From the NCBI GenBank assembly GCA_015066465.1, contig SVOI01000024.1, positions 1-35,719 of the forward strand: 35,719 nt of DNA, read 5' to 3'. The notes beneath the pieces are model-generated. The model searched no databases. It saw nothing but the letters and a program-made list of their open reading frames with translations, and was not told the DNA's origin. Made by a program: the position numbers and the translations under genes. This document shows, piece by piece, positions 6,397 to 35,719 of the stretch; within the stretch, counting starts at the first letter, position 1; each line of letters starts with the position of its first letter. This DNA is from Oscillospiraceae bacterium (GTDB lineage: Bacteria > Bacillota > Clostridia > Oscillospirales > Acutalibacteraceae).

Positions 6397-6461
6397 AAAA
6401 AAGCCCCCTAATTTTTTTAAAGATGTGTCACGACATAATAACACATTCTTCTATAAATACC

Positions 6462-6489: not shown

Positions 6490-6600
6490 GAAAAAGCACA
6501 AAAAATTTTGTTATTGTAGGCAAAAATAGTGTATTTTAACAAAAAAGAGTTGTTTTTTCTTAGTTTTTTTAACCATTATTCTTTTTTGTAATTTTAATTA

Positions 6601-6640
6601 AGAAAAAAGATGGCTTTACCAAACGGTAAAACCATCTTTA
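6601..6640 (-). terminator. Intrinsic terminator of the hybrid kinase gene
   Basis: AGATGGTTTTACC pairs with GGTAAAGCCATCT around a short loop, followed by TTTTTTCTT on the minus strand. It begins a few bases after the kinase stop codon. Confidence 0.88.
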
Positions 6641-6642
6641 AA

Positions 6643-18641: not shown

Positions 18642-19901
18642 TCACACTAAAAGTAAATCATTTAATAAATCTTCTGTTTCTGAAATTGCAGTTTTTGAAG
18701 TCTTTAACGAAACTAACTCTGCCAAATTGTTATAACCCTTTTTAGTACAAAGACTATAAAGTGTAGCCGAAAATTCTGTTGTGAATGAAAAATTCTCTAA
18801 TAAGTATGATAACACATTTTCATCATTAACTTCAACTGCAAATATTGCAACATCTTTTTCGTAACCAGCTATTAGCTTAGAATATTCCGTTTCTTTTAAT
18901 TCGCTTAAATCTTTTGGATATGAAAGTCTGAAAGCAGAAACAAATGCCTTTTCTAATTCTTCTGCCTTTTCTAACTGATTGTCATACTTTGAAAAATTGA
19001 ATTTACCATTTTCTATAATGTAGTCGCTATCATCCTTATAGGAATAATAATTGCTACTCATAAACACCTTAATCTGCTCTTTTTCTACTGCTAAAACGTG
19101 GTTCGGGCAGGTTTTATTTCTGTTTCGATAAGCAAATGGTAAAACTCCCTCAAATCCAAGTGAAAGAAAATCTATTGTTTCAGGAATATTTATAGTAATA
19201 CAATTTTCCAATTCATTTTTTGAAGTAAATGAAGAGCAGAACGCCGTGCCCTTTATTTTATATTCATCGTAAAATTTGTTATAAAAAACAGATTTACCAA
19301 GATATTCTAAATCGCTGTTGAACTTTACAATTTTTAAGTTTTTATCATCTTCAAATGCTTTGTGACCGAGTTTTTTAAGAGTCTCAGGGAAAATAACACT
19401 TTCTAAAGCAAAACAGCGCTTAAAAGCATAATCACCTATTTCTTTAAGATTATTACTGAATGTAATAGTTTTTAAATTTTTACAACCATAAAAACAGCCT
19501 TCTTCTATAATTTCGACTGTATCAGGAATTATTATTTCTTCTAAAGAAACACAACCCTTAAAAAGATTTTTTGGCAACACCCTTAATGGTGGCAAAATTA
19601 CTTTTTTAAGCTTGCGGCAATCCATAAAAGCGCCTTCACTAAGCTTTGCACCAACAGGAATTATTGCTTCTTCTAAAGAAACACAGTTATAAAACGCTTC
19701 ATAACCAATTTCTTTAAGATTATCATTAAATTTTATAATTTTCAGATTTCTGCAACCAGCAAAAGTCATTCGAGAAATTTCTTTAACTCTTTTTGTCAAT
19801 TCCAGTTGCAAAACCTGGTCATTGTAGTTATATTCATTTATTTTAGTTTTCTTTTTCTTATAAACTAAAACACCATTTTTTATTTTCAATTTATCACCCA
19901 A
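18642..19901 (-). CDS. Cytosolic LRR_5 (BspA-type) leucine-rich-repeat protein
   Basis: A 419-residue protein with about eight BspA/Treponema-type leucine-rich repeats in residues 35-225 (for example AFAGC-like MTFAGCRNLKIIKF, AFYNCVSLEEAIIP, LFKGCVSLEEIIIP, AFKRCFALESVIFP). An alpha-rich C-terminal part of about 160 residues has no recognised domain. Unlike most BspA-type proteins it has no signal peptide or surface anchor. Its TTG start (19899-19901) overlaps the stop of the VWA gene by 8 bp (TTGGGTGA), with AGGA six bases upstream, which points to translational coupling. Position between VWA and MoxR genes suggests a complex with them, as a recognition or scaffold subunit. This is inference. 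Confidence 0.85.
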   Translation of the reverse strand: MGDKLKIKNGVLVYKKKKTKINEYNYNDQVLQLELTKRVKEISRMTFAGCRNLKIIKFNDNLKEIGYEAFYNCVSLEEAIIPVGAKLSEGAFMDCRKLKKVILPPLRVLPKNLFKGCVSLEEIIIPDTVEIIEEGCFYGCKNLKTITFSNNLKEIGDYAFKRCFALESVIFPETLKKLGHKAFEDDKNLKIVKFNSDLEYLGKSVFYNKFYDEYKIKGTAFCSSFTSKNELENCITINIPETIDFLSLGFEGVLPFAYRNRNKTCPNHVLAVEKEQIKVFMSSNYYSYKDDSDYIIENGKFNFSKYDNQLEKAEELEKAFVSAFRLSYPKDLSELKETEYSKLIAGYEKDVAIFAVEVNDENVLSYLLENFSFTTEFSATLYSLCTKKGYNNLAELVSLKTSKTAISETEDLLNDLLLV

Positions 19902-21300
19902 TTAAATCCTGACTATCTAAAAACAAAGAGATTGCCCACAAAGGCATTTTTGATTTATCAAAACAACTGTCATTAATTACAAACAGGGACTTGAATTTTG
20001 GCATTTGCTTCGGGTAAATACCATCACCATCTGTAAAATAAATCAATCCATTAACTTCGTTTTTTTGTGAAGAAGTAAATATTTCATCTACATACTTAAA
20101 TACTGGTCTGAAATCTGTTCCACCAAAGCCCTTTAATGAAATATTTTTAATATATTCTTCTATCTCCTGAGAGCTTTTAAGAATTTTAATTTCTTTAATC
20201 TCTGAATCACATTGAATAATATGAACCTCTGTACTCTTACCGAAAAAGTCGGTTGACTTTAATATATTATAAGTCTTTTCTATAAATTTCTCAACCTGTT
20301 CACCTTTAACTGAGCCAGAAGTATCTATTGCAATAAAAAGCTTTTTTACCTTTGCATTTTCGGCATATTCAAGTGGTTCAATTATAGGCATATTCTTATA
20401 AGTATTAAGCCCATAAGTATAAAATATGTAATCAAATTCATCATCATTTATCTCTATTGTCTCATCAATAGAAATAAGTTTTTTAAGAAACTTGCTATAA
20501 TCATATTTATCTCTTGAAACGCCTTTTAAAACCGCTGTTTCAACGCCTGACATAAGTCCCTGATTTTTCAGTGCTTCAATATCACTCTCAACTGTCGGGG
20601 TAATTTTTCGCCAAAGCTCTTTTTCTTCTTCGGCACTACCATTTATAGCGTCATACATTATTTTGTCATTTGATTCATTAGAAAGACCTTTTCTATTATC
20701 CGCCTTTTTATAAATCGACCTTGCTTCAACAGTTTCTTCGTCATCATCAAATTCAAAAAAAGCAAAGTTTTTATTTTTATACCAGATTTTGTGAACATCA
20801 TCCGAGAACAAGTCGCTATAATATTTAATTGTTTCCTGTGAAAGCTCTGAGCCTTTTAAATAATAATAAATATTTTCTGCAGATAAATTCTTTACGCTCT
20901 TTGAAATGTCATTTATAACCATACTCTGTGCTGCTTCTTTATGACTCTTAGTGCTATTAAGATTCCAGTTATTAATTATATTTTCAACACAAATATCTGC
21001 TGAAAGATTCCAGAGAGTTGTATCTTTAAAATCAATATTAAACGGGTGAAGAAGCATACAGTGAAGAATTGAGTGAAGTAAAACTCTGTTTACAGAAGAC
21101 GTATCCTCTTTAAACCTTAAAAGAATAAATTGGGGGTTATAATAGAAGCTTTTAGCATCTGTAAAAACATCTTCTTCGTTAGTAGGAACAAACTGTAATG
21201 CATTTATTGCCCTTATAAGAGAGTGAATATTGCCTGTTAATTCTGTTTTAGCTTTAAGTAAAATTTCTTCTGCTAAAATTTCAGTTTTAGTTTTTTCCAT
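19894..21300 (-). CDS. VWA-like protein with N-terminal putative metallopeptidase domain (DUF2201 type)
   Basis: A 468-residue protein. The N-terminal part contains LLHSILHCMLLHPF and WNLSADICVE, typical of the putative metallopeptidase domain found with DUF2201 VWA-like proteins; there is no HExxH, so protease activity is doubtful. The C-terminal part is a VWA-like fold with an intact-looking MIDAS (AIDTSGSV), GFGGTDFRPVF and YFTDGDGIYP. The start is set at ATG 21300, because GAAAGGAGTG lies just upstream, rather than at a codon 36 bases earlier. It is first in the operon with LRR_5 and MoxR genes; the promoter and a leader hairpin lie at 21350-21410. VWA-MoxR pairs are known remodelling modules; the substrate is unknown. 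Confidence 0.87.
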   Translation of the reverse strand: MEKTKTEILAEEILLKAKTELTGNIHSLIRAINALQFVPTNEEDVFTDAKSFYYNPQFILLRFKEDTSSVNRVLLHSILHCMLLHPFNIDFKDTTLWNLSADICVENIINNWNLNSTKSHKEAAQSMVINDISKSVKNLSAENIYYYLKGSELSQETIKYYSDLFSDDVHKIWYKNKNFAFFEFDDDEETVEARSIYKKADNRKGLSNESNDKIMYDAINGSAEEEKELWRKITPTVESDIEALKNQGLMSGVETAVLKGVSRDKYDYSKFLKKLISIDETIEINDDEFDYIFYTYGLNTYKNMPIIEPLEYAENAKVKKLFIAIDTSGSVKGEQVEKFIEKTYNILKSTDFFGKSTEVHIIQCDSEIKEIKILKSSQEIEEYIKNISLKGFGGTDFRPVFKYVDEIFTSSQKNEVNGLIYFTDGDGIYPKQMPKFKSLFVINDSCFDKSKMPLWAISLFLDSQDLIG

Positions 21301-21339
21301 TATATATTCACTCCTTTCAAAAATTTTAAAAAACACAAA

Positions 21340-21410
21340 AAAAGCAAAAAAGGTCGGTTTTTTTAACCGACTACCCTTTTAGAATAACATAAAAAAATAT
21401 TAGTTGTCAA
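21340..21410 (-). promoter_or_regulatory. Promoter and immediate terminator-like leader hairpin of the VWA-LRR-MoxR operon
   Basis: TTGACA (21405-21410), an 18-bp spacer and TATTCT (21381-21386) on the minus strand. The predicted start (about 21374) is followed at once by GTCGGTT/AACCGAC (21353-21371) and then CTTTTTTGCTTTTTTTG, which has the shape of an intrinsic terminator. It may attenuate the operon, protect the 5' end, or stop read-through from the right. Confidence 0.55.
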
Positions 21411-21496
21411 TAACTTTTAAAAAAGTCGTTCTGGTGAATGATTATTCTCTCCGTTTTCTACATTTTGAAACTTTTAACTTTGTGAAACATTGCGAA

Positions 21497-21525
21497 TTGC
21501 AAAGCGCTTTTTTGTGTGCTACTAT
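21497..21525 (+). promoter_or_regulatory. Plus-strand promoter of a candidate RNA gene
   Basis: TTGCAA (21497-21502), a 17-bp spacer and TACTAT (21520-21525). A transcript would start near 21532. It is divergent from the VWA operon promoter. Confidence 0.5.
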
Positions 21526-21535
21526 ATAGACAAAG

Positions 21536-21702
21536 GAAGGGTGAGTCCGATGCCACAGTAAAACACAAAATCTAAAAAGAAAGTGTGGTTCCGATGTACT
21601 AAAAAACCAAAAAACTAAAATCAAAAAAATTTGAAAGTGTGGTTCCGATGTATTAAGAAACTATAATTCAAATTAAATTTGAAAGTGTGGTTACAATGTA
21701 CA
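21536..21702 (+). repeat. Four degenerate direct repeats, core GTGTGGTTCCGATGTA
   Basis: Units lie at 21579-21598, 21633-21652 and 21681-21700 (GAAAGTGTGG, then TTCCGATGTA, or TTACAATGTA in the last), with a shorter first relative (GGTGAGTCCGATG) at 21540-21552. Spacings are 44, 54 and 48 bases. Between units the sequence is A-rich. Each ATG is followed within one to three codons by a stop. Confidence 0.75.
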
Positions 21703-21870
21703 AGTAAACATCAATCCTTGGCTTTGTTAAAAAAGCCGATGGCGATTTCAGAGAAAAACAAAATTTAAAATTTCAGGTTAATTAACCGTTTACATATATG
21801 TAGAAATCGCCTGAAAGAATCTGTAGAAAGAAGAGGTAACAGAAAACGATGTTAGATATCAAAAGTGAAC

Positions 21871-21928
21871 AGTAACACCCCTTAGTTCGGATGTTTTTAA
21901 ACATGAGCTAAGGGGTGTTACTATTTTA
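21871..21928 (+). terminator. Strong terminator, 15-bp perfect stem
   Basis: AGTAACACCCCTTAG (21871-21885) and its perfect complement (21908-21922), with an inner ATGTTT/AAACAT pair, followed on the plus strand by ATTTTATATT. The minus-strand side has no T-run, so its polarity fits the plus-strand transcript, although it could also help end the GH28 gene. Confidence 0.72.
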
Positions 21929-23257
21929 TATTGCATCTGTTCCAGTAAATCTAATCATTTCTAACCCTGGGCAATTTTCATAATCTATTCTTTTATTATA
22001 ATCGTCACAAATGTTACCCCAGTTAACTGAACATTTTTCAATTAAAACGTTTTCTGCATTTCTTAAATAGAAAGCAGAATTTTTTATTTTTTCAACACCA
22101 TAATCTAAGCATGGTCTTAAATCATAAAGTCCACTTTCCCACTTAGTTGTTTTAGAAAGCGTTACGTTAACATTCTCAAACGTAACATTTTCAATCATAT
22201 TTTCTTTCGTTCCGTGAACTAAAACACCATTTTCACCTTTACAGGTAATATTGAAAAATCTTACGTTTTTGATTTTACCAGACTTTGTATTTTCATCACG
22301 ATTGAATGTAGTAATTACAATTGGCTCAGCAGTTCCCCACCAGTCAGGACAAAAACGACGGGTTTCAATAATGCAGTTTGAATATGTAACATTTTCAACA
22401 TTACCACCATCACGAATCTGAATAGAAAGACCACGATTACTTCTTGTGATAATACAGTTATTTACAATAACGTTTCTGAAATCGCCAACACCCTCTGTAC
22501 CAATTTTAATTGCTGCAGAAGTAGAAACGAGTGTGCAATCTGAAATTACAATATTTTCACAAGGACCATATTCTGCATTACCCTTTGATGCTTTAAGACA
22601 AATACAATCGTCTGCACATTCAATATGACAACCTAAAATTCTCACATTGCTACAATGGTCTGGGTCAATACCATCTGAGTTTGCAACGTCTAAATCGTTG
22701 AGAATTCTTATCTGTGATATTAAAACATCGTCACAACCCGCTGGATGAAGTGTCCAGAAAGGCGCATCTGTAACTGTAAAATCTTTAAATGAAATATTAT
22801 TACTTTTTTCAATATAAATTACAGTTGGTCTTGGGTAGAAATCGCCTGTTACGTAATATTTATCTTTTCTTTTTACAAAGCTATGACCATTGGCATCAAT
22901 AATACCCTCACCTGTAATAGAGCATTTATCTGCTTCAAAACCGTAAATAAACACAAATGACGGCTTGCCTGTAACAGGGTTACCTATGAGTGCAGTTTTA
23001 GGGTCGTTTATCATATTACAAGGGCGGATATATCCGTCAATATTATCTGTTGCTTTAAGTCGTGAGCCTTTCTGCAAATGTAATTCAACATTCTTTTTCA
23101 TCCTTATTGAATCTGAAAAATATGTTTTGCCACTCAAAAGAACTACTACACCACCGCCATTTTCTTCCGCTTTATCAATAGCAGTCTGTATTGCTTTAAC
23201 GTCATTCGCTTTACCATCACCTAATGCACCATAATCTTCTGGGTAAAAATATTTCAT
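21926..23257 (-). CDS. GH28-like right-handed beta-helix glycosidase (polygalacturonase family)
   Basis: A 443-residue parallel beta-helix protein. The N-terminal pectate-lyase-superfamily motif YGALGDGKANDVKAIQ is followed by beta-helix repeats, with the GH28 aspartates in NSDGID (193-198) and ADDC (215-218). The usual GHG histidine segment is replaced by SAAIKIGTEG (247-256), and the RIK-type motif is SIQIR (278-282). Pectin-type glycosidase activity is therefore likely but the exact substrate is open. There is no signal peptide, so it is cytoplasmic and would act on imported oligosaccharides. It has its own promoter and the RBS AAAGGTG. It lies downstream of the oligopeptide transporter and YjbR genes, probably as a separate unit. 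Confidence 0.85.
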   Translation of the reverse strand: MKYFYPEDYGALGDGKANDVKAIQTAIDKAEENGGGVVVLLSGKTYFSDSIRMKKNVELHLQKGSRLKATDNIDGYIRPCNMINDPKTALIGNPVTGKPSFVFIYGFEADKCSITGEGIIDANGHSFVKRKDKYYVTGDFYPRPTVIYIEKSNNISFKDFTVTDAPFWTLHPAGCDDVLISQIRILNDLDVANSDGIDPDHCSNVRILGCHIECADDCICLKASKGNAEYGPCENIVISDCTLVSTSAAIKIGTEGVGDFRNVIVNNCIITRSNRGLSIQIRDGGNVENVTYSNCIIETRRFCPDWWGTAEPIVITTFNRDENTKSGKIKNVRFFNITCKGENGVLVHGTKENMIENVTFENVNVTLSKTTKWESGLYDLRPCLDYGVEKIKNSAFYLRNAENVLIEKCSVNWGNICDDYNKRIDYENCPGLEMIRFTGTDAI

Positions 23258-23286
23258 ATGTCGTCACCTTTTTTTAAGATAGAATT

Positions 23287-23316
23287 AGTATAACATATTC
23301 AGTAAGAGATGTGCAA
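23287..23316 (-). promoter_or_regulatory. Promoter of the GH28-like gene
   Basis: TTGCAC (23311-23316), an 18-bp spacer and TATACT (23287-23292) on the minus strand, 30 bp before the start codon. Confidence 0.55.
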
Positions 23317-23336
23317 GGGGTGTAGTTGTCAGTAAC

Positions 23337-23702
23337 TCACTTGCAACTTTTTTTAACGTTCGTCAAATCAAAACTCAAGTCTAAAAGCCATTCTATTTTT
23401 TCTTTTTCAACAGTTCCATCAAGTGCTACTGAAATCCAATGAGTTTTACTCATATGGTATGCAGGAAAAATACCTTTTTCTGTTGTTACATTCATAAGTG
23501 GGTCACATTTTAAATTGACAATATCAATGCTTTCAGTTGAGTCAAAACCCAGCTTGTCTTTTGTTATTGTCATAATAACTGCAAACCACTTTTTGTTGTT
23601 ACTGTGACGAAACACTGCAAATGAGGGTGCGCTTTGCCATGGGTATTCAGGCTCTACGGCATATTTTTCTGTTATTAGTTGTTCTAATTTCTGTCTATCC
23701 AT
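23337..23702 (-). CDS. MmcQ/YjbR family protein
   Basis: A 121-residue small protein of the MmcQ/YjbR (CyaY-like fold) family, often annotated as DNA-binding but without a proven function. Typical features are the N-terminal short helix, PWQSAPSFAVFRH, KWFAVIM, NLKCDP and the hallmark YHMSKTHWISV near residue 83. Length is normal. The gene lies 61 bp after the oligopeptide-binding protein gene, with a strong hairpin between; the ribosome site is weak (AGGGGAT within the hairpin, about 15 bases away), so translation may be low or depend on the hairpin. Confidence 0.88.
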   Translation of the reverse strand: MDRQKLEQLITEKYAVEPEYPWQSAPSFAVFRHSNNKKWFAVIMTITKDKLGFDSTESIDIVNLKCDPLMNVTTEKGIFPAYHMSKTHWISVALDGTVEKEKIEWLLDLSFDLTNVKKSCK

Positions 23703-23714
23703 TTTATATATTTT

Positions 23715-23750
23715 TTTATCCCCTTGCCGATTTCTCGGTAAGGGGATAAA
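23715..23750 (-). other. Strong hairpin after the binding-protein gene
   Basis: TTTATCCCCTTACCGA pairs over 16 bp with TCGGCAAGGGGATAAA around a GAAA tetraloop (minus strand). A-residues, not T, follow, so it is not a classic terminator. It may stabilise the binding-protein mRNA 3' end, and its right arm contains the only RBS-like sequence of the YjbR gene. Confidence 0.7.
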
Positions 23751-23763
23751 TTATCAAGATTTC

Positions 23764-25548
23764 TTAAGCTGTGATGTTTGAATAGTACTTTTTGAGTACT
23801 TCAACAGCCTTCTGGCAGTTTGCTGCATATGAATCTTCTGAAATGTCATAATAACCATCGAAGTCTTCGCTTGGACCAGCATTCTTGTAGAATTCTGAAC
23901 CGTCAGCATCTGTCATACCCATAGCAACGAATGAAGAAGCAGGAAGTTCACCGCCCTGTGCAATATCGTTAACGATATATGAACGGTCGAAGAGAAGAGC
24001 AATAGCATTTCTGATTTCTTGTTGTGCTTTTTCTTTTTCTACACCTGTAAGCTCGCTACCTGGAAGAAGGTCTTCGTTGATGTTCCAGCATACATAGTAA
24101 GTACCGATTTGACCAGCAACAACGAATTCATTTGCATAATCCTTTTTGAGAGTTGCAATTTCGTTTGTTGGAACGTCATCGATAAGGAGCCAAGAACCAT
24201 TTTTGAAGTTTGAAAGCATGTTGTTAGCGTCATCTGAAAGGAACATTTTGATTTCTTCCATCTTAACGTCAGCAGCTGCAAAGTAGTTAGGGTTCTTCTT
24301 AAGTGTGATTACACTGTTGTGATCCCAAGAAGCCATTGTGTATGGACCGTTGCAGATATAAGTAGAAGGATCTGTAGCCCAAGCTTCGTTACCGAATGCT
24401 GAAGAGTGTACTGGGTAGTATGTTGGGAAAGCAAGAAGCTCATTCCAGTAGTTTACAGCATTTTCAATTGTAATTGTGATTGTGCCAGCAGCATCATCAG
24501 CAATTGCATTGAGTTTCTTTGTTGCATCTTCTTGCATTTCTGCATAGCCGTCAACGATTTCGAACATGTAACCATAGTCAGCTGCAAGTTCTGTTGAAGC
24601 TGCACGGTTCCATGAGTTAACGAAGTCAGAAGCTTTAACTTCATCACCGTTTGACCATTTCATGCCTGAACGGAGTTTATATGTGTAAGTAACTGTACCA
24701 TCTTCGTTAACTACACCTTCTGGAAGTGCTTCGGCTGCGTCTGGAGCAATAACAAGTTTACCTTCTGCATCCTGAGCCCATTTTGCAAGACCTGAGAAGA
24801 GGTGAGCAACTGTTGTTGCACCGTCAACTGCACTGTTGAGTGCTGGGTCAAGTGTTTGTGGTTCTGATGCAAGACAAACTGAGATAGAATCTGTTTTACC
24901 AGCTACGTCTGTATTCATGAAATACTTGTAACCGAGTGGGTTTGAATAGAAACCGTTAACTGATTCATCAATCATATAAAGGTCTGTGTAGTAGTAAAGA
25001 GGAACGATACAGCCTGTTTCCATAAGCATATCTTCTGCAAGGTGCATCATTGCATAACGAGCTTCTGAGTCTGTACAAGCTTTGATTCTCTGAATGAGAA
25101 CGTCATATGTTTCTGCCCATGTGCCGTTTTCAACCTTATCTTCTAAGCCGTAAGCTGTGAGGTCAAGGTTATACATTTTAAGGTCAGCGTGAGCGCCTTT
25201 ACCGTATTGAACGTCGTTGTTACCTGAACCTGAAGTCCACATATCAAGGAAGCTGATTGGGTCATTGTAGTCAGCGAGCCAACCGTTTCTTGCTACTGAG
25301 TATTCGCCGTTCTTACGTGTTTCAAGGAATGTGTTCCATTCTTGGTTCTGAAGATTCATTGTGATACCTGCAGTCTGAAGAGCGCTCTGAAGATATTCAC
25401 CAATAGCCTTATGGCTATCACTTGTGTTATAAAGGTATGTGAGTGTAGGAGCTTCAACTTGCTTAACGTCTTTGCCACCATTACCGCCACAAGCAGCGAG
25501 AGAAAGTAACATAGTTAAAACAAGAATTACTGCGAGTAACTTTTTCAT
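23764..25548 (-). CDS. Oligopeptide-binding lipoprotein (SBP_bac_5) with circularly permuted domain order
   Basis: A 594-residue solute-binding lipoprotein of an Opp-type importer. The lipoprotein signal ends in LSLAAC with Cys20. Residues 33-213 (LTYLYNTSDSHKAIGEYLQ, NQEWNTFLETRKNG, ARNGWLADYNDPISFLDMW, VPLYYYTDLY) match what is normally the C-terminal third of OppA; E. coli OppA has LLYNTSD, NQEWKTFLDTR and ARAGWCADYNEPTSFL near its end. From residue 220 the normal N-terminal part begins (SISVCLASEPQTLDPALNS, MKWSNGDEVKASDFV, NGPYTM) and runs to LKKYYSN, the point just before the first block in normal proteins. Length equals a normal OppA. The reading frame is intact, with a good RBS (GGTGG). 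The gene follows oppBCDF. A real permutation or an assembly fault are the alternatives. Confidence 0.9.
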   Translation of the reverse strand: MKKLLAVILVLTMLLSLAACGGNGGKDVKQVEAPTLTYLYNTSDSHKAIGEYLQSALQTAGITMNLQNQEWNTFLETRKNGEYSVARNGWLADYNDPISFLDMWTSGSGNNDVQYGKGAHADLKMYNLDLTAYGLEDKVENGTWAETYDVLIQRIKACTDSEARYAMMHLAEDMLMETGCIVPLYYYTDLYMIDESVNGFYSNPLGYKYFMNTDVAGKTDSISVCLASEPQTLDPALNSAVDGATTVAHLFSGLAKWAQDAEGKLVIAPDAAEALPEGVVNEDGTVTYTYKLRSGMKWSNGDEVKASDFVNSWNRAASTELAADYGYMFEIVDGYAEMQEDATKKLNAIADDAAGTITITIENAVNYWNELLAFPTYYPVHSSAFGNEAWATDPSTYICNGPYTMASWDHNSVITLKKNPNYFAAADVKMEEIKMFLSDDANNMLSNFKNGSWLLIDDVPTNEIATLKKDYANEFVVAGQIGTYYVCWNINEDLLPGSELTGVEKEKAQQEIRNAIALLFDRSYIVNDIAQGGELPASSFVAMGMTDADGSEFYKNAGPSEDFDGYYDISEDSYAANCQKAVEVLKKYYSNITA

Positions 25549-25659
25549 TGTTATCTACCACCTTTTCTTACTTTTGTTTTTAAAATTTTATTTATATAAA
25601 TACTTTAATGGATGCACGCCATAAAGCATAAATATACTGATGAATTGAGAAAAAACAAA

Positions 25660-26649
25660 TCAGCCGTTAATTTCTTCAACTCTGTGGCAAGCCACAAAAT
25701 GACCTTTTGAAATTTCCCTGAATTCTGGTACTTCTTCGGCACATCTCTCACAAGCATATTCGCATCTTGTTCTGAAAGGACAGCCTGATGGAGCGTTAAG
25801 AGGTGAAGGAATATCACCAGAAAGTGGAATACGGTTATTAAGTCTTGCAATCTTAGGGTCTGGCATTGGAACTGCCGACATAAGTGCTTTTGAATATGGG
25901 TGTAATGGTCTTTCATAGATTTCGTTTGCATCTGTGAGTTCAACCATTTTACCTAAGTACATAACCGCAATTCTGTTACTGATATGACGAACAACTAAAA
26001 GGTCGTGAGCAATAAAGAGATAGGTAAGACCTAATTCTTCTTGTAATTCGCCAAACATATTAACAACCTGTGCCTGAATTGACACGTCAAGTGCAGAAAC
26101 AGGTTCGTCACAAACAATAAACTCAGGGTTAACTGCAAGAGCACGGGCAATACCGATTCTCTGGCGTTGACCACCTGAAAATTCGTGAGCATAACGAGAA
26201 GCGTGTTCACTGTTAAGACCAACTCTTGACATAAGCTGAAGAACTCGCTCTCTACGCTCTTCTTCAGTTTTATATAACTTATGAATATCTAAAGGCTCTG
26301 CAATAATATCAGAAACAGTCATTCTTGGGTTGAGTGAAGAATAAGGGTCCTGAAAAACCATTGTACTCTTTTTACGATATTCGTTTATATCTGCTTTAGT
26401 TTTTAACGGCTTACCATCATAAATGATTTCACCAGAAGTTGGTTTATATAAGTGAAGAAGTGTTCTACCAACAGTAGTTTTACCACAACCAGATTCACCA
26501 ACTAAACCTAAAGTTTCACCTTTATTGATTGAGAATGAAACATCGTCAACAGCCTTTAATGGTTTTGAAGAAAACACACCTGTGCTTATATCAAAATACA
26601 TTTTAAGGTTTTTGACCTCTATAAGTGGAGAGTTATTTTTATCACTCAT
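25660..26649 (-). CDS. oppF: Oligopeptide ABC transporter ATP-binding protein OppF
   Basis: A 329-residue ABC ATPase, one of two that power peptide import. Walker [13 protein letters not shown], signature [15 protein letters not shown], Walker [13 protein letters not shown] and the switch IAHD are intact. The C-terminal oligopeptide-transporter domain has [17 protein letters not shown], a cysteine set known in Dpp/Opp ATPases. The start overlaps the oppD stop by 8 bp (ATGAGTGA), indicating translational coupling. A gap of 111 bases separates it from the binding-protein gene. Confidence 0.95.
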
Positions 26650-27670
26650 CTTTTGCTACCTCCCCATCTTTTTTGTCTTCAATTTCTATTGTGCCGTCTT
26701 CAATTCCTTTTTTAACGTTCATCCAGCAAGCAGCTGCATGGTCGTCATTAATGAGCATTCTCTCAGCATTCTGTTTAATACAGATTTTCATTGCCGCATC
26801 ACATCTTGGAGCAAATGGGCAACCCTTTGGCATATTGAGAAGGTCAATAGGAGTACCAGTAATTGGCTTTAACTTCTGACCGAATGTATTTGTTGTAGGA
26901 ATAGAACGAAGAAGACCTTTTGTATATTCATGACGTGGGTTATAGAAAATTTCGTCTGCTGTACCCTGTTCACAGATAGAACCAGCATACATAACGATAA
27001 CTTCGTCACACATCTGTGCAACAACGCCAAGGTCGTGAGTAATCATAATAATAGCCATACCTAATTCCTTCTGTAAAGAAGTCATAAGGTCTAAAATCTG
27101 AGCCTGAATAGTAACGTCAAGCGCTGTTGTAGGCTCGTCAGCAATAAGAATGTCTGGCTCGCAAGCAAGAGCCATAGCAATAACAACTCTCTGGCGCATA
27201 CCACCTGAAAGCTCGTGTGGATATTGCTTCATTCTCTTTTCAGGTTCATTGATATTTACAAGACGGAGCATTTCAACTGCTCTTTCTTTTGCCTGTTTTT
27301 TATTTCTGCCAGTATGAAGCAAAATCGCCTCTGTTAACTGGTGACCGATAGTGTGAGTAGGGTTAAGAGAAGTCATAGGATCCTGGAAGATTATAGAAAT
27401 CTTGTTGCCCCTTACTTTTCTCATTTTCTTTTCGCCTGCATCAACTAATTCTTCACCGTCAAGCTTTATAGAGCCACCTACAATTTTACCTGTAGATGCT
27501 AATATCTGCATTATAGAATATGCTGTAACCGATTTACCCGAGCCAGATTCACCAACAATACCGAGAACCTTGCCCCTGTCTAACTGGAATGATATACCAT
27601 TAACTGCTTTTACTTCGCCAGCATCAGTAAAAAATGATGTGCGAAGGTCATTCACTTCAAGCAATACCAT
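26642..27670 (-). CDS. oppD: Oligopeptide ABC transporter ATP-binding protein OppD
   Basis: A 342-residue ABC ATPase, partner of OppF. Walker [10 protein letters not shown], signature LSGGMRQRV, Walker [13 protein letters not shown] and ITHD are intact. The C-terminal cysteine segment [17 protein letters not shown] matches the peptide-transporter family. The highly charged C-terminus ([14 protein letters not shown]) is a short extension. The RBS is weak (AGGT, about 16 bases away), so translation may depend on the upstream oppC. Confidence 0.95.
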
Positions 27671-27702
27671 AATTTATAAAATCCGTACCTTTCAAATAAT
27701 TC

Positions 27703-28761
27703 TTAGTCATTGAGTTTTGGGTCGAAAGCATCTCTTAAGCCGTCACCTAAAAGGTTAAGTGACAAAACTATAAGAGAAATAACGATTGCCGGAATAACAA
27801 GTCTTGATGGATATGAGTTTATTCCGTTCAATGCATCAGATGCGAGAGAACCTAATGATGGCATTGGTGCATTAACGCCAAGACCCAAGAATGAAAGATA
27901 ACTCTCTGTGAAAATAGCACTTGGAATCTGAAGTGCTGTTGAAATAATAATAACGCTTATACAGTTTGGCATAAGGTGTTTAAAGATAACCCATTTACCA
28001 CGAGCACCTGCAGCACGGGCTGCAAGAACGTATTCTTGTTCTCTCAATGAAAGAATCTGGCCACGGATAAGACGTGACATTGAAACCCAGTAAAGAACAC
28101 CGAAAACTATAAACAAGCTTATAATATTGGCACCAATCTGCTCTAATGCCGTGCCTTTTATTATTTCATCTAAATTAGTCTGCTTTAACGCAGAAGCAAG
28201 TAAAATAATAAGAAGCATATCTGGTAAAGAGTATATGATATCAACTATTCTCATTATAACAAGGTCAACCTTGCCACCACAGTAACCCGCAATAGAACCA
28301 ACGGTCATACCTATAATAAGAACAATAATACTTGCAAAGAAACCAACTGCAAGTGAAATTCTTGCACCATAAACAACACGAATAAAGTAGTCACGACCTT
28401 GGGAGTCAGTACCGAAAATATGTGGGAATATTTTTTCGCCTGCTTCCATTCTTTCGAGTTCGGTTGCACCGTATTCAAATGGTGCTAAGTTGTTATAAGA
28501 AGCGTCAACTGGTTTACCTAACTGAACACCTAACATCTGGTCGTATGAATAAGGTATAAAAAGTGGAAGTAAAATACTACTGAGTACAACAAGTACAACA
28601 ATAATAAGACTAACAAGTGCCACTTTGTTTTTTACAAATCTTTTAACACCATCACGGAAGAAGGTTGTTGATGGTCTCATTTGTACCATATATGCTTTTT
28701 CTTCTTCAGTAGCTGGTAAAAATGCATCAACGTTAAGATGCATACTGAAAAGCTTTTTCAT
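27703..28761 (-). CDS. oppC: Oligopeptide ABC transporter permease OppC
   Basis: A 352-residue integral membrane permease. One transmembrane helix lies near residues 45-70 (VALVSLIIVVLVVLSSILL), then an extracytoplasmic stretch with the family's FGTDSQGRDYF, then about five further helices. The EAA loop contacting the ATPases is QEYVLAARAAGARGKWVIFKHLMPN. It ends GDGLRDAFDPKL, typical for OppC/DppC. The RBS AAGGAA is well placed. It forms the channel with OppB. Confidence 0.95.
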   Translation of the reverse strand: MKKLFSMHLNVDAFLPATEEEKAYMVQMRPSTTFFRDGVKRFVKNKVALVSLIIVVLVVLSSILLPLFIPYSYDQMLGVQLGKPVDASYNNLAPFEYGATELERMEAGEKIFPHIFGTDSQGRDYFIRVVYGARISLAVGFFASIIVLIIGMTVGSIAGYCGGKVDLVIMRIVDIIYSLPDMLLIILLASALKQTNLDEIIKGTALEQIGANIISLFIVFGVLYWVSMSRLIRGQILSLREQEYVLAARAAGARGKWVIFKHLMPNCISVIIISTALQIPSAIFTESYLSFLGLGVNAPMPSLGSLASDALNGINSYPSRLVIPAIVISLIVLSLNLLGDGLRDAFDPKLND

Positions 28762-28805
28762 TTATAAATTCCTTTCTTATTGAGTTTCCTTTTAGCTTTA
28801 TTCTA

Positions 28806-29735
28806 TCACTCTAACTTAATACGTGGGTCAATAATCTTGTAAAGAATATCACTGATAAGGTTCATAACTACAATAAGAATAGCAAGAACAATAGTAGTAC
28901 CCATAATAAGTGTATAGTCACGGTTAATAATACTGCTTACGAATGCTCTGCCTATACCAGGAACTGCAAAAATCTGCTCAACAACAAGTGAACCTGTAAC
29001 GATATATGCAAGCATAGGACCAAAATATGTTACAACTGGAATAAGTGCATTTTTAAGAGCGTGACCAAAAATAATTTTTGTTCCAGAAACGCCCTTTGCT
29101 TTTGCGGTACGGATATAATCCTGACCTAAAACATCGAGCATTGAAGACCTTGTAAGTCTCGTAATATTTGCCATTGGTGACAATGAAAGTGTTATAATTG
29201 GTAACACAAGACCACCAGCCTCAGAACCGTTAGCAGGGAACAACGCCAACTGAACTGTGAAGAAGAGTAACAAGAAAGTACCCATAATGAATGATGGCAT
29301 TGAAACGAATGCTGTTGTCATAACCATTATAACTCTATCTATAAACTTATTTCTTCTGAGTGCTGCAACTGAGCCTAAAACAGTACCACTGATGAGAGCA
29401 ATTACCGCAGCAACTGCACCGAGCTTTGCAGATGTTTTCATACCATCAGCAATAATATCTATAACGTCACGGCCCCTTTGTTTAATAGATGGGCCGAAAT
29501 CAAAGCCTGTTATAATATCTTTAAGATATGTAATATATTGTTCAAATAATGGTTTATCAAGACCATATTTAGCTTCAAGAGCCGCTTTAGCTGCTTCTGA
29601 AATAGCCTTTTCACCAAGGAATGGACCACCAGGAACGGCGTGCATTACAAAGAATGTAATTGTAATAACAATTAACACAGTTAAAAGCGACAAGCCTATT
29701 CTTTTTAATATGTACCATAAAGTTTTTGTGTTCAT
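28806..29735 (-). CDS. oppB: Oligopeptide ABC transporter permease OppB
   Basis: A 309-residue permease with an N-terminal helix (LKRIGLSLLTVLIVITITFFVMHAVPGGPF, abbreviated family start RxxxxLLTV...PGGP), the YGLDKPLFEQY segment, five further helices and the EAA loop QDYIRTAKAKGVSGTKIIFGHALKN. It ends with DPRIKLE as in OppB/DppB. It is first in the operon oppB-C-D-F-binding protein, with a promoter about 75 bases upstream. Confidence 0.95.
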   Translation of the reverse strand: MNTKTLWYILKRIGLSLLTVLIVITITFFVMHAVPGGPFLGEKAISEAAKAALEAKYGLDKPLFEQYITYLKDIITGFDFGPSIKQRGRDVIDIIADGMKTSAKLGAVAAVIALISGTVLGSVAALRRNKFIDRVIMVMTTAFVSMPSFIMGTFLLLFFTVQLALFPANGSEAGGLVLPIITLSLSPMANITRLTRSSMLDVLGQDYIRTAKAKGVSGTKIIFGHALKNALIPVVTYFGPMLAYIVTGSLVVEQIFAVPGIGRAFVSSIINRDYTLIMGTTIVLAILIVVMNLISDILYKIIDPRIKLE

Positions 29736-29812
29736 CTTTTTACCTTGACTTTCTCTTTGGATTTACTTCTTTATACTTAAAAAACACTTTCGCATTTTTA
29801 GATATATTGCTT

Positions 29813-29841
29813 ATAATACCATAAACACACATATTTTGCAA
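29813..29841 (-). promoter_or_regulatory. Promoter of the opp operon
   Basis: TTGCAA (29836-29841), a 17-bp spacer and TATTAT (29813-29818) on the minus strand. Confidence 0.65.
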
Positions 29842-29879
29842 GATATATTTTATTGCTTTATCATAAAAAAGTGTGTTTA

Positions 29880-30011
29880 GTTGTCAGTGGTCAGTGAGTC
29901 AGTAGTTAGTACTAATAAAGGAAAAATTATCCTATCATTTTTAGTTAATGTAAAAATGATAGGATAAACTATTTGTTATTCACTTGTAATTATGCATTGT
30001 GCATTCTGCAT
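29880..30011. repeat. Heptamer-bounded repeat element, copy C (different left arm)
   Basis: The right arm (from 29988) is ATTATGC ATTGTGC ATTCTGC directly after the oxidoreductase stop codon. The core is the conserved hairpin with loop AGTTAATGT. The left arm is a different heptamer family, GTTGTCA GTGGTCA GTGAGTCA GTAGTTA (29880-29911). No gene is seen. Confidence 0.65.
29921..29967 (-). terminator. Hairpin core of copy C; textbook intrinsic terminator
   Basis: TTATCCTATCATTTTT and AAAAATGATAGGATAA form a perfect 16-bp stem (29927-29942 with 29952-29967) around a 9-base loop, followed by TTTTTCCTTT on the minus strand. It lies 45 bases after the oxidoreductase stop codon. Confidence 0.85.
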
Positions 30012-31271
30012 TTATTTATTCGCTCTATATGCAGCAATTGCATCATCATAAGCTTTCATAGATTCCTCTGTAGGAATGTATTCTTTTCTTTCAGTATTAG
30101 CAATTGTTGGTGGGTTACCCTTCGAATCGTAGCAAGGTGTTAAGAAGTCATTTTCCCATTTCTTTCTGTCTTCTTCTTTTCTGAAGTCAGGAATGTCGTA
30201 AGGAACACCATACTCTAAAGCACTTCTGTGACCTAAAATTGCAACTGAAGCCATTGTTGTTGCAAAATATTCATCAAACATTGGCTTTCTGTTTTCACGG
30301 ATACTGTTGAAGAATTCACGAACTATGAAGAAGTCGCCGCCACCGTGACCAGCTTTTTCTGCTGCTTCTTTTGCTTCTGGCTCAAAGTCTGCTTCGTAAG
30401 TAGTTACTCTTTCCATACCCTCTGGAATATGCTCTTCATTAAATGAAAGAAGAACTTTTCCATCTTCTGCACGAAGATTTTCAATCTGACCTAATTCACC
30501 GCAAACTCTGTATGTATTAGCGTGACCGCCGAAGTGTGACCAACCAGTTACTCTGAATACAGAATCATCGTCATTAAGGCAAGTAACAACAGCACTTCTG
30601 TCTGGTAATCGCCAATAAAGGCTACCGCCACCATTTTCTTCGTTAAGAGGTCCAAAAATTGGCATACCTGTAACTCTTTTTGGGAATGCACCTGTGATAT
30701 ACATAAGTGGGCCTAAAGAGTGAGTAATATAATAAATTCTTGGAATATGATATCTCCAGTGTTTTGAAGATGGGCAATATTTATTAATATCTTCTTGTTT
30801 AAGAATTGGGTGGTTATATTCACCCTCAGCAAATAAAGCCTTACCAAGAACGCCTGACTGGTAAACCTTGCGCATTTCCTGATTGAACTTCATAAATGGA
30901 TAGTTTTCAGCAATCATATAATAAGCGTTGCTTTTTTCAACTGCTCTGACTAAAGCTACACCCTCACCCATTGAGATATTTGAAGTACATTCACTTAAAA
31001 CGTGAATATTCTTTTCTAATGCTTTAATAGCGTATGGTGTATGCTCGTGGAAATAGTTGCAAAGGAAAACTGCTTCTAATCCCTCGTGATTTATAAATTC
31101 ATCAAAGTCTGTATATGTAGCAATACCCTCGTGGTCTTCACGTGCTTTTTTGAGTTTTTCTTCATCAAAATCGCAAACCGCAACAACCTCACCATTGTTA
31201 GCCTTTACGCCGTCATAAAAGCCACTGCCACGGCCTAAGCCGAATATACCGAACTTAATTGTTTTTTCCAT
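30012..31271 (-). CDS. Gfo/Idh/MocA family sugar oxidoreductase
   Basis: A 419-residue NAD(P)-dependent oxidoreductase or glycoside-modifying enzyme. The Rossmann segment is FGIFGLGRGSGFYDG (7-21), with the acidic residue CDFDE in the cofactor-binding region and the family helix HTPYAIKALEKNIHVLSE, where many relatives have an EKP motif. The C-terminal alpha/beta domain is normal, ending at GVPYDIPDF. The substrate cannot be read from sequence; sugar-acid, inositol or deoxysugar compounds are usual. The RBS GGAGG is perfect. It has a promoter in the 111-bp gap after the NimA gene, so it is probably a separate unit in a sugar-use region. Confidence 0.88.
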   Translation of the reverse strand: MEKTIKFGIFGLGRGSGFYDGVKANNGEVVAVCDFDEEKLKKAREDHEGIATYTDFDEFINHEGLEAVFLCNYFHEHTPYAIKALEKNIHVLSECTSNISMGEGVALVRAVEKSNAYYMIAENYPFMKFNQEMRKVYQSGVLGKALFAEGEYNHPILKQEDINKYCPSSKHWRYHIPRIYYITHSLGPLMYITGAFPKRVTGMPIFGPLNEENGGGSLYWRLPDRSAVVTCLNDDDSVFRVTGWSHFGGHANTYRVCGELGQIENLRAEDGKVLLSFNEEHIPEGMERVTTYEADFEPEAKEAAEKAGHGGGDFFIVREFFNSIRENRKPMFDEYFATTMASVAILGHRSALEYGVPYDIPDFRKEEDRKKWENDFLTPCYDSKGNPPTIANTERKEYIPTEESMKAYDDAIAAYRANK

Positions 31272-31308
31272 AGTAATACCTCCGTCAGTAACAAAAATAT
31301 ACAGTTCT

Positions 31309-31336
31309 ATTTTATCACATACATTTAATTTGTAAA
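31309..31336 (-). promoter_or_regulatory. Promoter of the Gfo/Idh/MocA gene
   Basis: TTTACA (31331-31336), a 16-bp spacer and TAAAAT (31309-31314) on the minus strand. Confidence 0.5.
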
Positions 31337-31382
31337 TAGAAATCTTCTATAAAAATATATAAAATAGTTAGAAATCTTGCTG

Positions 31383-31871
31383 TTATTTACTTGGTAAAGG
31401 TCTGTGCTTCGCAGTAAATTCTGACACTTCAATTTTAATTATTCCTACAACAGATGCTAATTTTTCATTGAACTGAAAATCTTTATTAACCTGTGTTTTC
31501 ATAAGAAGCGAAAGTGCTTTTTGTTTTTCTTCAGAATCTTCAATAATTGTGGCAATACCTTTACCCATAAGTGAAGAATAACTTAAGCCATATTTACAGG
31601 CAACGTCACCCTCAAATGGAACTAAATCACATTCCATCTCGAAAAACACTTTTGGATTTTTTCTTATAATATCAAGTTTTCTGCCAGTTGTTGCTCCGTG
31701 AAGCCATATAGTAAGCTTTTCATTCTCGTAAGTGTAGCCATAATTCATTGGCACAACGTAAGGCTCGTCACCATCAACCATTCCAATATGTATAACTTTT
31801 GATTTATCGAGTATTTCTAATATTTTATCAATATCAAAAATCTGACGTTCTCTGCGTGTCATTCCGTTCAT
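31383..31871 (-). CDS. NimA-like pyridoxamine 5'-phosphate oxidase-family flavoprotein
   Basis: A 162-residue split-beta-barrel flavoprotein, close to the NimA (5-nitroimidazole resistance-like) group common in anaerobes. Typical segments are KVIHIGMVDGDEPYVVPMNYGY, LTIWLHGATTGRKLDIIRKNPKVFFEM and YSSLMGKGIATIIED. The true reaction in the cell is unclear; nitroreduction should not be assumed. Its ATG overlaps the stop of the sialidase-fold gene by 4 bp (ATGA), so it is translationally coupled to an exported glycosidase, which is an odd partner. Confidence 0.85.
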   Translation of the reverse strand: MNGMTRRERQIFDIDKILEILDKSKVIHIGMVDGDEPYVVPMNYGYTYENEKLTIWLHGATTGRKLDIIRKNPKVFFEMECDLVPFEGDVACKYGLSYSSLMGKGIATIIEDSEEKQKALSLLMKTQVNKDFQFNEKLASVVGIIKIEVSEFTAKHRPLPSK

Positions 31872-33214
31872 TTTTTCTTATTCCTTTTCTTTTTAACAAT
31901 CAATATTAATATAATGATTACTATCGCACTAAAAGTAACCCCTCCTGAAACAAGAACAACAGGCATAATAGCAGTATTTCTTATTCCTTCAATATTAAAT
32001 AGTTGTAGACTACTTTCAAAATCAACTGTAATAAAAAGCATCCTTGACTTTCCACGATTATCAGGGTTTTGCGGATTATTAATCAAATACATATCCTTGC
32101 CATCTTCAGAGAAAGCAAAAGAATTACTGTATCCTGCATTGTTTGTTGCCGTATACGAAATCATATGTGGTATAGCAACAAAACTTCTGCCATTATCATC
32201 ACTTATGAATAAATCGCTACCTGTATTGCTTTCACCAGTTCTCATAAAGGTACCACCCACTATAAGTGTTCCATTTTCACCACCCACAGGAGTCCATGCA
32301 CAAAAAGGAGCTGAACCGAGAGCTTTTTTACCACCATAATAACTTACTACTTCTTTACCGATATATTTCGGATTACCCCAATCAAGACCATCGTCTGAAT
32401 ATCTCGAATAAATCGGATTACCACTAACACCTTTTTTATCAACAACTTCGTAAACCATAAAATATCTGCCGTCGCCAAGTCTCGTTACAACAGGCATACC
32501 CGGTCGTTCATCAAAATTCCTACTTGCTACAACGTCCGTTGTACCACTCCAATTTTCTGCATCATCTGAAGTTTTGTAAACTATTTTCTGTGAATGCTCT
32601 TTGCCAGAATCATCTGAATAATAACAAACAAGTCTGCCATCATCAAGTTGCAATAAAAATGGTTCCCATACACCTTCTTCAAGACCTCCACCACTTGCTA
32701 CCACAACACCTTGTTCAAAAGTAGAACCACCGTCTGTACTGAAATACAGTCTTATGTACGACTCTTTTTTATGTTCCGGGTCAATTGAACAACCAGCTAA
32801 AATAACAGTCCCTTTTTTATACTTACCACAATCTTTTTCTAATTCAAAAAGAAAAGGATTCCACTCAGAATTCGCTCCGGTAAGAGTATCAGTAACATAA
32901 GTTATAACATCCCAATTTTTACCATTATCTGTACTTTTATAAATCGGATATCTTGGATTATACTCTTCGAGTCCTGCATTAAGTTCACAATGTGTTGCAA
33001 GAATTGCACCATCATCTGAATTGCCTTGATTTTTGAGCACAAGTAATCTTCCGTACTGCACCCCAGCGCCCCACCAATCAGGTTCGGAACTTGTGAGAAC
33101 AGCGCACTCTTTAAGCACAAAACCTTCGTTTGCAAAAGCATTTACAGTAAAAGAAAATAAAATCAACAACAATAAAATTGCAGAAAAAATGCATTTCTTG
33201 TAGTTCTTCACCAT
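31868..33214 (-). CDS. Membrane-anchored sialidase-fold hydrolase (BNR repeats; possibly GH93-like)
   Basis: An exported protein of 448 residues. The signal peptide is NYKKCIFSAILLLL... up to NAFANEG. The beta-propeller has Asp-box-like repeats STDNGKNWD, STDGGSTFE, SDDGLDWG and SDDNGRSF, and conserved VWEPFLLQLDDGRL and RPGMPVVTRLGDGRYFMVYE. A C-terminal transmembrane helix (VVLVSGGVTFSAIVIIILIL) and a KKKRNKKK tail anchor it to the membrane with the enzyme outside. Start ATG 33214 is preferred over the GTG six bases upstream because of AGGGG spacing. Sialidase activity is uncertain; pectin or arabinan genes nearby favour a GH93-like exo-arabinanase. Confidence 0.8.
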   Translation of the reverse strand: MVKNYKKCIFSAILLLLILFSFTVNAFANEGFVLKECAVLTSSEPDWWGAGVQYGRLLVLKNQGNSDDGAILATHCELNAGLEEYNPRYPIYKSTDNGKNWDVITYVTDTLTGANSEWNPFLFELEKDCGKYKKGTVILAGCSIDPEHKKESYIRLYFSTDGGSTFEQGVVVASGGGLEEGVWEPFLLQLDDGRLVCYYSDDSGKEHSQKIVYKTSDDAENWSGTTDVVASRNFDERPGMPVVTRLGDGRYFMVYEVVDKKGVSGNPIYSRYSDDGLDWGNPKYIGKEVVSYYGGKKALGSAPFCAWTPVGGENGTLIVGGTFMRTGESNTGSDLFISDDNGRSFVAIPHMISYTATNNAGYSNSFAFSEDGKDMYLINNPQNPDNRGKSRMLFITVDFESSLQLFNIEGIRNTAIMPVVLVSGGVTFSAIVIIILILIVKKKRNKKK

Positions 33215-33229
33215 CTCCACCCCTATTTA

Positions 33230-34855: not shown

Positions 34856-34869
34856 AATATACTATCCCC

Positions 34870-35719
34870 TTATGGTAAAATATTTCCTGCCGAACGATAA
34901 ATTTCATACCATTCTTCACGGGTGATTTCTATTTCGCTTGCCCTTAAGCAATCTTTAAGTCTCTCTAAATTTGTAGTGCCTGTAACAGGTTGCATTTTTG
35001 CAGGGTGACGAAGAATCCAACTGAAAGCTATTGTAGTTTTTGAAGCACCATATTTTTCTCCGATTTTTTGAAGTGTCTCATTAAGTTTCGGAAATTTTTC
35101 ATTATCTATAAAGCAACCTTTGAAAAATCCGTGTTGCATCGGTGACCATGGTTGAATTGTAATATTATTAAGTCTGCAATATTCTATATTACCAGCATCT
35201 CTGTTTACACCCGCTGTGTTTTGCATATTAACATTAACACCAAAATCTATCATCGGTGTATGCATAACACCAAATTGCAACTGATTTGCGCAAATCGGAA
35301 CGTTTAAAGAATTCTGTAAAAGAGCCATCTGATGAGGATTCTGATTAGAAACGCCAAAATAACGGACTTTGCCTGAAGTTTTTAAATACTCAAATGCCTT
35401 TGCTACTTCTTCTGGCTCCATAAGAGCATCTGGTCTATGAAGAAGTAAAACATCTATATAATCTGTACCAAGTCTTTTAAGACTGCCATCAACAGAATTT
35501 ACAATGTGGTCATAAGAAAAATCGAAAAAACCTTTACATATGCCACATTTTGTCTGAATTAAAAGTTTTTCTCTGTCTATTGAAGCAATTGCTTTACCAA
35601 AAACCTCTTCACTTTTACCACCGCCATAAATATCGGCATGGTCAAAAAAGTTTGCACCGTTACTCAAAGCGGTATCTACAAACTCAGAAATCTCTTTTTC
35701 AGTCTTATCGCTTATTCTC
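34870..35719 (-). CDS. Aldo/keto reductase, N-terminus beyond window
   Basis: A partial gene: 283 residues can be read to the right edge, still in frame (…RISDKTEKEISEFVDTAL…), so about 30-40 N-terminal residues are missing. Motifs of the family are FFDHADIYGGGKSEE (catalytic Asp and Tyr), IQTKCGI (Lys) and DVLLLHRPD (His). FGVSNQNPHQM, NQLQFG and the C-terminal GTTNLERL cofactor segment are present. NADPH-dependent reduction of an aldehyde, ketone or sugar is expected; the substrate is unknown. It is the first visible gene of the operon with the beta-helix and sialidase-fold genes. Confidence 0.88.
   Translation of the reverse strand, partial: RISDKTEKEISEFVDTALSNGANFFDHADIYGGGKSEEVFGKAIASIDREKLLIQTKCGICKGFFDFSYDHIVNSVDGSLKRLGTDYIDVLLLHRPDALMEPEEVAKAFEYLKTSGKVRYFGVSNQNPHQMALLQNSLNVPICANQLQFGVMHTPMIDFGVNVNMQNTAGVNRDAGNIEYCRLNNITIQPWSPMQHGFFKGCFIDNEKFPKLNETLQKIGEKYGASKTTIAFSWILRHPAKMQPVTGTTNLERLKDCLRASEIEITREEWYEIYRSAGNILP

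Follow-up and report, generated by a model that had tools for sequence, protein, structure and literature searches.

A peptide-binding lipoprotein gene with rotated block order beside an oligopeptide importer operon: a probable natural circular permutant with relatives in three rotations

Introduction

The window, i.e., the whole 35,719-nt stretch of DNA analyzed here (contig SVOI01000024.1, positions 1–35719, assembly GCA_015066465.1), belongs to an Oscillospiraceae draft genome of 2.53 Mb in 92 contigs, 80.6% complete. Its minus strand carries an oligopeptide ATP-binding cassette (ABC) importer gene set, comprising B and C permeases and D and F ATPases, followed by the gene of a substrate-binding protein (SBP). 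Circular permutation has mostly been treated either as something ancient and rare or as a tool of protein engineering, and an earlier note on this sequence had suggested that this binding protein may be a natural permutant. The question is whether a receptor with such a chain order can be genuine and functional, or whether it is the product of a faulty assembly or of gene decay. The evidence presented below indicates that the gene very probably encodes the working peptide receptor of the adjacent B-C-D-F (BCDF) importer, a cluster C (SBP_bac_5) oligopeptide-binding lipoprotein that has undergone circular permutation in nature.

Results

Block order of the window protein

The SBP was compared by phmmer with sequences from the Protein Data Bank (PDB), and three alignments (B. 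subtilis DppE 8ay0, B. subtilis OppA 8are and OppA 1b05) showed its blocks in swapped order. Against DppE, residues 228–558 correspond to positions 30–339 of the chain, and residues 25–112 and 144–207 to positions 357–445 and 448–512. Against OppA 1b05, residues 227–542 correspond to 20–319, and residues 35–119 and 148–212 to 360–445 and 446–511. Aligning the halves separately to the OppA family had been proposed as a check, and both phmmer and block hidden Markov models (HMMs) bear out the order then claimed: signal peptide, C-terminal block, and then the N-terminal and middle part. The limits given for the two parts (33–213 and 218–594) proved right within a few residues, the block HMMs placing the linker at 213–219. 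The frame is open, as had been stated, and no second copy of any block, including a C block downstream, was found in a six-frame scan of window positions 19001–35719 (the first 19 kb lie outside the scan). The protein is thus made of the same blocks in cyclic rotation, with its native ends joined and its new ends elsewhere, and it departs from the usual N1-N2-C chain order of SBP_bac_5 (cluster C) proteins. The orders referred to below are canonical (N1-N2-C), type I (C-N1-N2), type II (N2-C-N1) and type III (C2-N1-N2-C1). The parts of the window gene are as follows.

23764..25548, minus strand: circularly permuted type I (C-N1-N2) oligopeptide-binding lipoprotein gene, 594 codons, ATG start, open frame
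25492..25548, minus strand: signal peptide, residues 1–19, followed by lipobox Cys20 (L-A-A-C) (from the sequence; lipobox pattern in 18/18 type I genes)
25453..25491, minus strand: predicted lipidated Cys20 and short tether, residues 20–32 (from the sequence)
24913..25452, minus strand: C block (C1+C2), residues 33–212, about OppA 360–511, usually C-terminal (phmmer, block HMMs)
25270..25290, minus strand: R87-x-G89-W90-x-x-D93 motif, putative site for the peptide amino terminus (conserved in 38/38 permuted genes)
24892..24912, minus strand: new linker TDVAGKT, residues 213–219, from native C end to native N end
24061..24891, minus strand: N1 block, residues 220–496, about OppA N-terminus to ~283
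23767..24060, minus strand: N2 block, residues 497–594, about OppA 287–357; the protein stops where the C block normally comes next

Pfam SBP_bac_5 (PF00496) matches the window protein in two stretches (204.4 bits against a gathering threshold of 32.4; E-value 3.6e-60), and the type II and type III proteins tested also match it. Matches to NCBIfam were all below cut-off. Because the chain order differs, membership in SBP_bac_5 (cluster C) rests on descent and predicted fold, and the protein is to be regarded as a permuted variant.

Relatives in three rotations

The earlier note had proposed searching other genomes for the same order, and divergent relatives do share it. A related-locus search returned 66 loci, 15 of which contain a full-length gene in the window's order, all of them in metagenome-assembled genomes (MAGs) and 70–83% identical over the aligned blocks; type I loci L040 and L041 are identical to each other. 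A first set of 68 proteins came from 65 loci (the 66th, L095, was dropped, as no open reading frame (ORF) was recovered), with two distant relatives and the window's own protein added. All blocks were found in 64 of these 68 proteins (38 canonical, 16 type I with the window's, 10 type II), and 4 were partial. The search was widened within the family (300 genomes) and the class (391 genomes). Type III was first met in genes where the query aligned as one piece from about residue 138–147 on; eight loci of the wider search have this order, with the chain break midway through the C block, directly behind S-G-N-N-D-x-Q.

When every ORF in 216 loci was scanned with the block HMMs, the three rotations were confirmed, and L213 came to light, a type I gene 39% identical to that of the window. 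Among four-block ORFs (loci up to L256, re-fetched copies included) the order was cyclic in 220 of 220 (152 canonical, 31 type I, 24 type III, 13 type II) and non-cyclic in none. Once identical cores and canonical ORFs scoring <300 were removed, the deduplicated set (n = 152) held 114 canonical, 18 type I, 11 type II and 9 type III genes. Identity to the nearest canonical sequence over the aligned blocks is 64–78% for types I and II, 52% for L213 and 49–53% for type III.

Within the family, 31 genomes had a match of 1e-60 or better (G105 among them cut by contig ends, and G298 yielding no locus), and 13 of them hold a permuted form: 6 type I with the window's, 1 type II and 6 type III. The reading as a natural permuted protein is supported by its conserved order, by usual-order orthologues in the same operon place and by its high-confidence predicted fold; it is, however, one of three rotations and not the single permuted protein then envisaged. 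In the window's genome, no other close SBP was found. No close orthologue was found in 21 congeners of that genome (G001–G021; best E-value 4.7e-15), and the gene is thus unevenly distributed within the genus.

Two further ORFs deserve a comment. L141, a canonical-order relative, is spread over two overlapping frames, the first with N1, N2 and the start of C1 and the second with the remainder of C1 plus C2, which resembles a frameshift or an assembly error. A dimly related ORF (L096:6007-6822) shows N2-C blocks behind ~580 residues without a recognised N1, and is possibly damaged or an unusual fusion.

Joints, predicted fold and position of the anchor

The C-to-N1 linker measures 5–8 residues in all 38 distinct permuted genes and 7 residues in 26 of them; many type I and type II linkers are alike (T-x-V-x-G-K-x-D). 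Chain ends and linkers agree within a few residues, except that L213 differs at the far end. According to published accounts, OppA domain I comprises residues 1–44, 189–269 and 487–517, domain II 45–188 and domain III 270–486 (PMC6305025), and domain III is lobe 2 in Ami binding proteins (PMC11192437). Both native ends are thus in one domain, domain I, as the earlier note had it. When mapped on OppA by alignment, the cuts fall at ~283–287 (type II), 357–360 (type I) and 445/446 (type III), all in domain III. Since the cuts are in domain III and the native ends in domain I, each permutation would shift the N-terminal tether from lobe 1 to lobe 2. The type II cut is just past the hinge crossing, so that the lobes of type II proteins would be almost consecutive along the chain. 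In type III genes L119–L124, L137, L139 and L216, the last ~20 positions of the C1 model are unmatched. The C1-C2 loop (about residues 118–140 of the window protein) seems, from these sequences, to be lost where the type III chain opens.

In structure prediction, another of the checks proposed, the permuted chain is predicted to fold with high confidence. The AlphaFold predicted local distance difference test (pLDDT) score was 91 for type I and 90 for type II, with a mean of 98 over residues 211–220 of the window protein, which span the linker. A fold search against the PDB, which works in sequence order, aligned the N1-N2 part (type I) or the N1 part (type II) with family 5 proteins.

In the arrangement we propose, the ~7-residue linker connects the two native ends, which lie in domain I, and the chain opens in a domain III loop, just before strand LTYLYNTSD. 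The permuted chain is predicted to form the usual two-lobed peptide trap, in which the lobe 2 R-x-G-W-x-x-D motif would bind the peptide amino terminus, and the peptide would be delivered to the same kind of transporter as canonical orthologues use. The main physical change would be that the lipidated N-terminal Cys tethers lobe 2 instead of lobe 1. It is conceivable, albeit rather doubtful, that in gut bacteria with this importer selection has repeatedly favoured a lipid tether on lobe 2 over one on lobe 1, permutation being the way to achieve it, each time through a cut in domain III and a bridge of about 7 residues between the native ends. If true, anchor relocation would amount to a topological switch that a transporter receptor has made naturally and more than once.

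Route of the rearrangement

The accepted models of permutation are duplication with trimming and fission with fusion (PMC3320104). The rotations probably arose repeatedly in this subfamily, at three cut sites, through in-frame tandem duplication and trimming. This route, already put forward in the earlier note, is the one we prefer, since the products are all clean rotations whose in-frame bridges are short. Fusion of separate half genes in different orders is unlikely, although it is a recognised route (PMC3320104) and the cuts lie at loops where split halves might assemble. The partial ORFs encountered are mostly distant or contig-cut, the split in L141 resembling a frameshift, with the limit that split halves were not sought systematically; moreover, every block of the type I and II genes tested is most like a single subfamily. 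Around the permuted genes, the SBP pieces found amount to a separate, distant canonical-order SBP in L054 and in L087, and a weak N2 match in L217 only.

A chimera of distant paralogues was also considered and rejected, each block of the type I and II genes tested resembling the same subfamily. For type III genes and for L213, the closest canonical sequence varies from block to block (48–65% identity), which decides nothing about a chimera.

Number of origins

Trees were inferred for the SBP and for the partner genes, and topologies were compared by the approximately unbiased (AU) test. The sets were as follows: 46 rows hand-chosen from the 152 (5 type I and L213, 5 type II, 8 type III, 27 canonical); a 73-row SBP set (rows scoring >=800 plus L114 and L117; 11 rows dropped, type II L090 among them); and an operon tree of 83 of the 220 four-block loci with enough partner sequence and distinct F (the window's full operon is not a row), from which 14 rows were dropped to leave a 69-row AU set. 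The careful SBP tree leaves out L003, L004, L092, L097, L088 and L094.

Could one ancient permutation have given all the permuted forms, the canonical genes in between being reversals? This is most improbable. In the 46-row set a single clade was rejected for types I, II and III together (p 1e-50) and for all permuted genes with L213 (p 4e-63), so several reversals would be needed. A clade of L213 with the five other type I genes was likewise rejected (p 4.5e-23). L213 stands among canonical genes on starred branches, and starred branches also keep it apart from type III. Speaking for a single origin are the similar C-to-N1 linkers of many type I and II genes, a joint I+II clade that survives the test, and a possible reversal at L191/L225. 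A pure type III clade was not rejected (AU p 0.32), nor was one clade each for types I and II (operon set, p 0.385 and 0.315; SBP set, p 0.61 and 0.77). The operon tree, which is free of the permuted gene, requires type I to have changed three times and type II twice, and these changes would mean more events or an exchange of SBP genes between operons. From these sequences, the least count would be three origins (I/II, III and L213), unless canonical order was regained in between; since types I and II differ, it would entail at least four rotation events.

Counting origins from the close SBP tree alone was tried and abandoned, as its backbone is not resolved and the quick and careful trees disagree on L042, L045, L046 and L090. 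A canonical-order gene (L191/L225/L257, genome G091) falls within the type III clade of the SBP tree and of the operon tree alike.

Operon place and signs of function

The importer genes of the window, assigned by Pfam and synteny, are the following.

25660..26649, minus strand: oligopeptide ABC transporter ATPase, DppF/OppF type (Pfam ABC_tran and oligo_HPY)
26642..27670, minus strand: oligopeptide ABC transporter ATPase, DppD/OppD type
27703..28761, minus strand: permease with OppC_N, DppC/OppC type
28806..29735, minus strand: permease, DppB/OppB type

The permuted gene directly follows F in 35 of the 38 distinct cases, as canonical orthologues do (in L035, L036 and L040 the preceding gene, labelled D36, is F, 82–88% identical). 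The exceptions are L046 and L216, on stretches without partner genes, and L213. The BCDF set beside L213 is 46–58% identical to that of the window; otherwise the partner proteins of type I and II genes are 68–92% identical to the window's, split pieces of C reaching 56–64%. Canonical orthologues up to 78% identical occupy the same operon place. Under one genus code, G091 (canonical) and G209 and G286 (type III) carry their SBP behind the same BCDF genes, with partners 64–78% identical. At locus L231 (G678), BCDF lies at 322–4318 (plus strand) and the SBP at 6582–8276 (minus strand), the divergent type I gene L213 facing BCDF from the opposite strand. In L054 (7786–9574) and L087 (7786–9583), a second, distant canonical-order SBP follows directly, together with another BCDF set, 34–52% identical to the window's.

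That the gene is a non-functional remnant left by the rearrangement is highly improbable. The frames are open in 17 other type I genes, 16 of them at 65–83% identity to the window and L213 at 39%. Signal peptide and motif are retained, R-x-G-W-x-x-D being present in 38/38 distinct permuted genes, and the genome offers no other close SBP among those found. Nonsynonymous divergence (dN) is well below synonymous divergence (dS) in seven of the eight permuted pairs tested (types I and II), for example dN/dS 0.128/1.41 for the window against L032 and 0.116/0.76 for one type II pair; two canonical pairs gave 0.064/0.76 and 0.023/0.19. The remaining pair, type II L052/L054, has a higher ratio, with dN still below dS, and is the one that speaks for decay. 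The role ascribed to the motif draws on AliB W500/D503 (PMC11192437) and DppA D436 (PMC12136057), as described in these reports; we infer that the motif corresponds to these residues for the peptide amino terminus. On this reading, the permuted receptors would bind peptides and serve in their transport.

The lipobox pattern is present in 18/18 type I, 11/11 type II, 6/9 type III and 90/114 canonical genes, and the distance from Cys to the first block in type I genes has a median of 9.5 residues. The type III genes without it are L119 (a near-match), L137 (a plain signal peptide) and L216 (a dockerin-like segment). A dockerin-type segment (PF00404) precedes the SBP in L085:5225-7228 (above cut-off), L086:4866-6860 (at cut-off) and L216:548-2422 (just under it), which suggests that such relatives may attach to scaffolds instead of using a lipid anchor. 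Type II genes L052, L054 and L087, from MAGs labelled Coriobacteriaceae, start with a twin-arginine-like signal (TRRNFL) and a lipobox. The signals of the Clostridia copies are different, perhaps because the gene crossed between phyla and later exchanged its signal.

Weighing the evidence

An assembly artefact, in which normal oppA pieces were joined in the wrong order during metagenome assembly, can practically be dismissed even though all named records with permuted genes are MAGs, because the joints are conserved in many assemblies: the same in-frame joints recur in 18 type I genes after deduplication, whose sources are the RGIG, SIG and horse-faeces series as well as other genomes, types II and III add 20 genes with RUG and TPA assemblies included, ends and linker agree within a few residues (the far end of L213 excepted), and the window gene lies well inside its contig. 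Usual-order relatives, which the earlier note had named as a sign of misassembly, do exist in the same operon place, alongside the relatives that have the conserved joints.

Several observations nevertheless speak against a functional permutant that arose by repeated duplication. The named records that contain permuted genes are all MAGs. L213 is not part of a BCDF set but sits ~2.3 kb from one, on the other strand. The models cover types I and II, and the fold search reached the N1-N2 or the N1 part alone. The alignments used by AlphaFold2 included canonical fragments, so that its confidence already builds in part on the premise that the fold is shared. No fused dimer or half-trimmed intermediate was found, either in a six-frame scan of the permuted loci or as block repeats within ORFs. 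Pair L052/L054 has the highest dN/dS seen (0.183/0.29). As for the trees, one clade for types I and II was not rejected (AU p 0.73, 0.17 and 0.22) and the I/II backbone is not resolved; constrained trees scored above the quick free tree in the 73-row set; L191/L225 may be a return to canonical order or a mixing of genes; and since canonical order could return, rejecting a single clade still leaves room for one origin.

Discussion

Among the literature matches listed, there was no permuted family 5 binding protein and no cluster C subfamily with cuts at three sites. Of the precedents found, TpMglB-2 (Tp0684), a Type Ic / Cluster Bc glucose-binding lipoprotein, comes nearest (PMC4990184). It too is a natural permutation of a tethered ABC SBP with relatives in Gram-positive gut bacteria, and its authors likewise raise membrane anchoring as a possible reason. 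It differs in being a cluster B sugar binder of another fold, with one permutation that affects the N lobe (PMC4990184). The window family, in contrast, consists of cluster C peptide binders with three cut sites, spread over no single clade, and with canonical orthologues in the same operon place. The window protein does not have the cluster B sugar-binding fold: its family, sequence and aligned fold matches are family 5 proteins. With OppA/DppE/AliB-type (SBP_bac_5, cluster C) proteins it shares blocks, predicted fold, ligand motif, lipobox and BCDF operon, whereas the chain order of the window family is rotated and its termini are in lobe 2, not lobe 1.

Outside binding proteins, the permuted imelysin-like protein of Bacteroides (PIBO) offers permuted and canonical relatives, 45% identical, in gut bacteria, but one permutation and an unrelated helical fold (PMC3143127). 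DNA methyltransferases and saposin/swaposin are textbook permutations by duplication (PMC3320104). The window family departs from them in having all its orders in one subfamily and nearly always at one operon position. The DNA methyltransferase classes have several orders in one superfamily.

Nature seems to have reshuffled this transporter part several times with signs of function kept. Canonical and permuted receptors matched by operon make it possible to test, with natural proteins, what chain order does to folding, secretion, tethering and transport, and the joints offer natural guidance for the design of permuted sensors that bind peptides. Annotation by profiles can miss a permutation: Pfam gives the two type III proteins tested one unbroken SBP_bac_5 match.

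Elsewhere in the window, no tRNA gene was found; a receiver-GGDEF-EAL protein (3823–6444), a 1420-aa multi-PAS hybrid histidine kinase (6643–10905) and a Spo0A-type regulator (11058–11822) are clustered.
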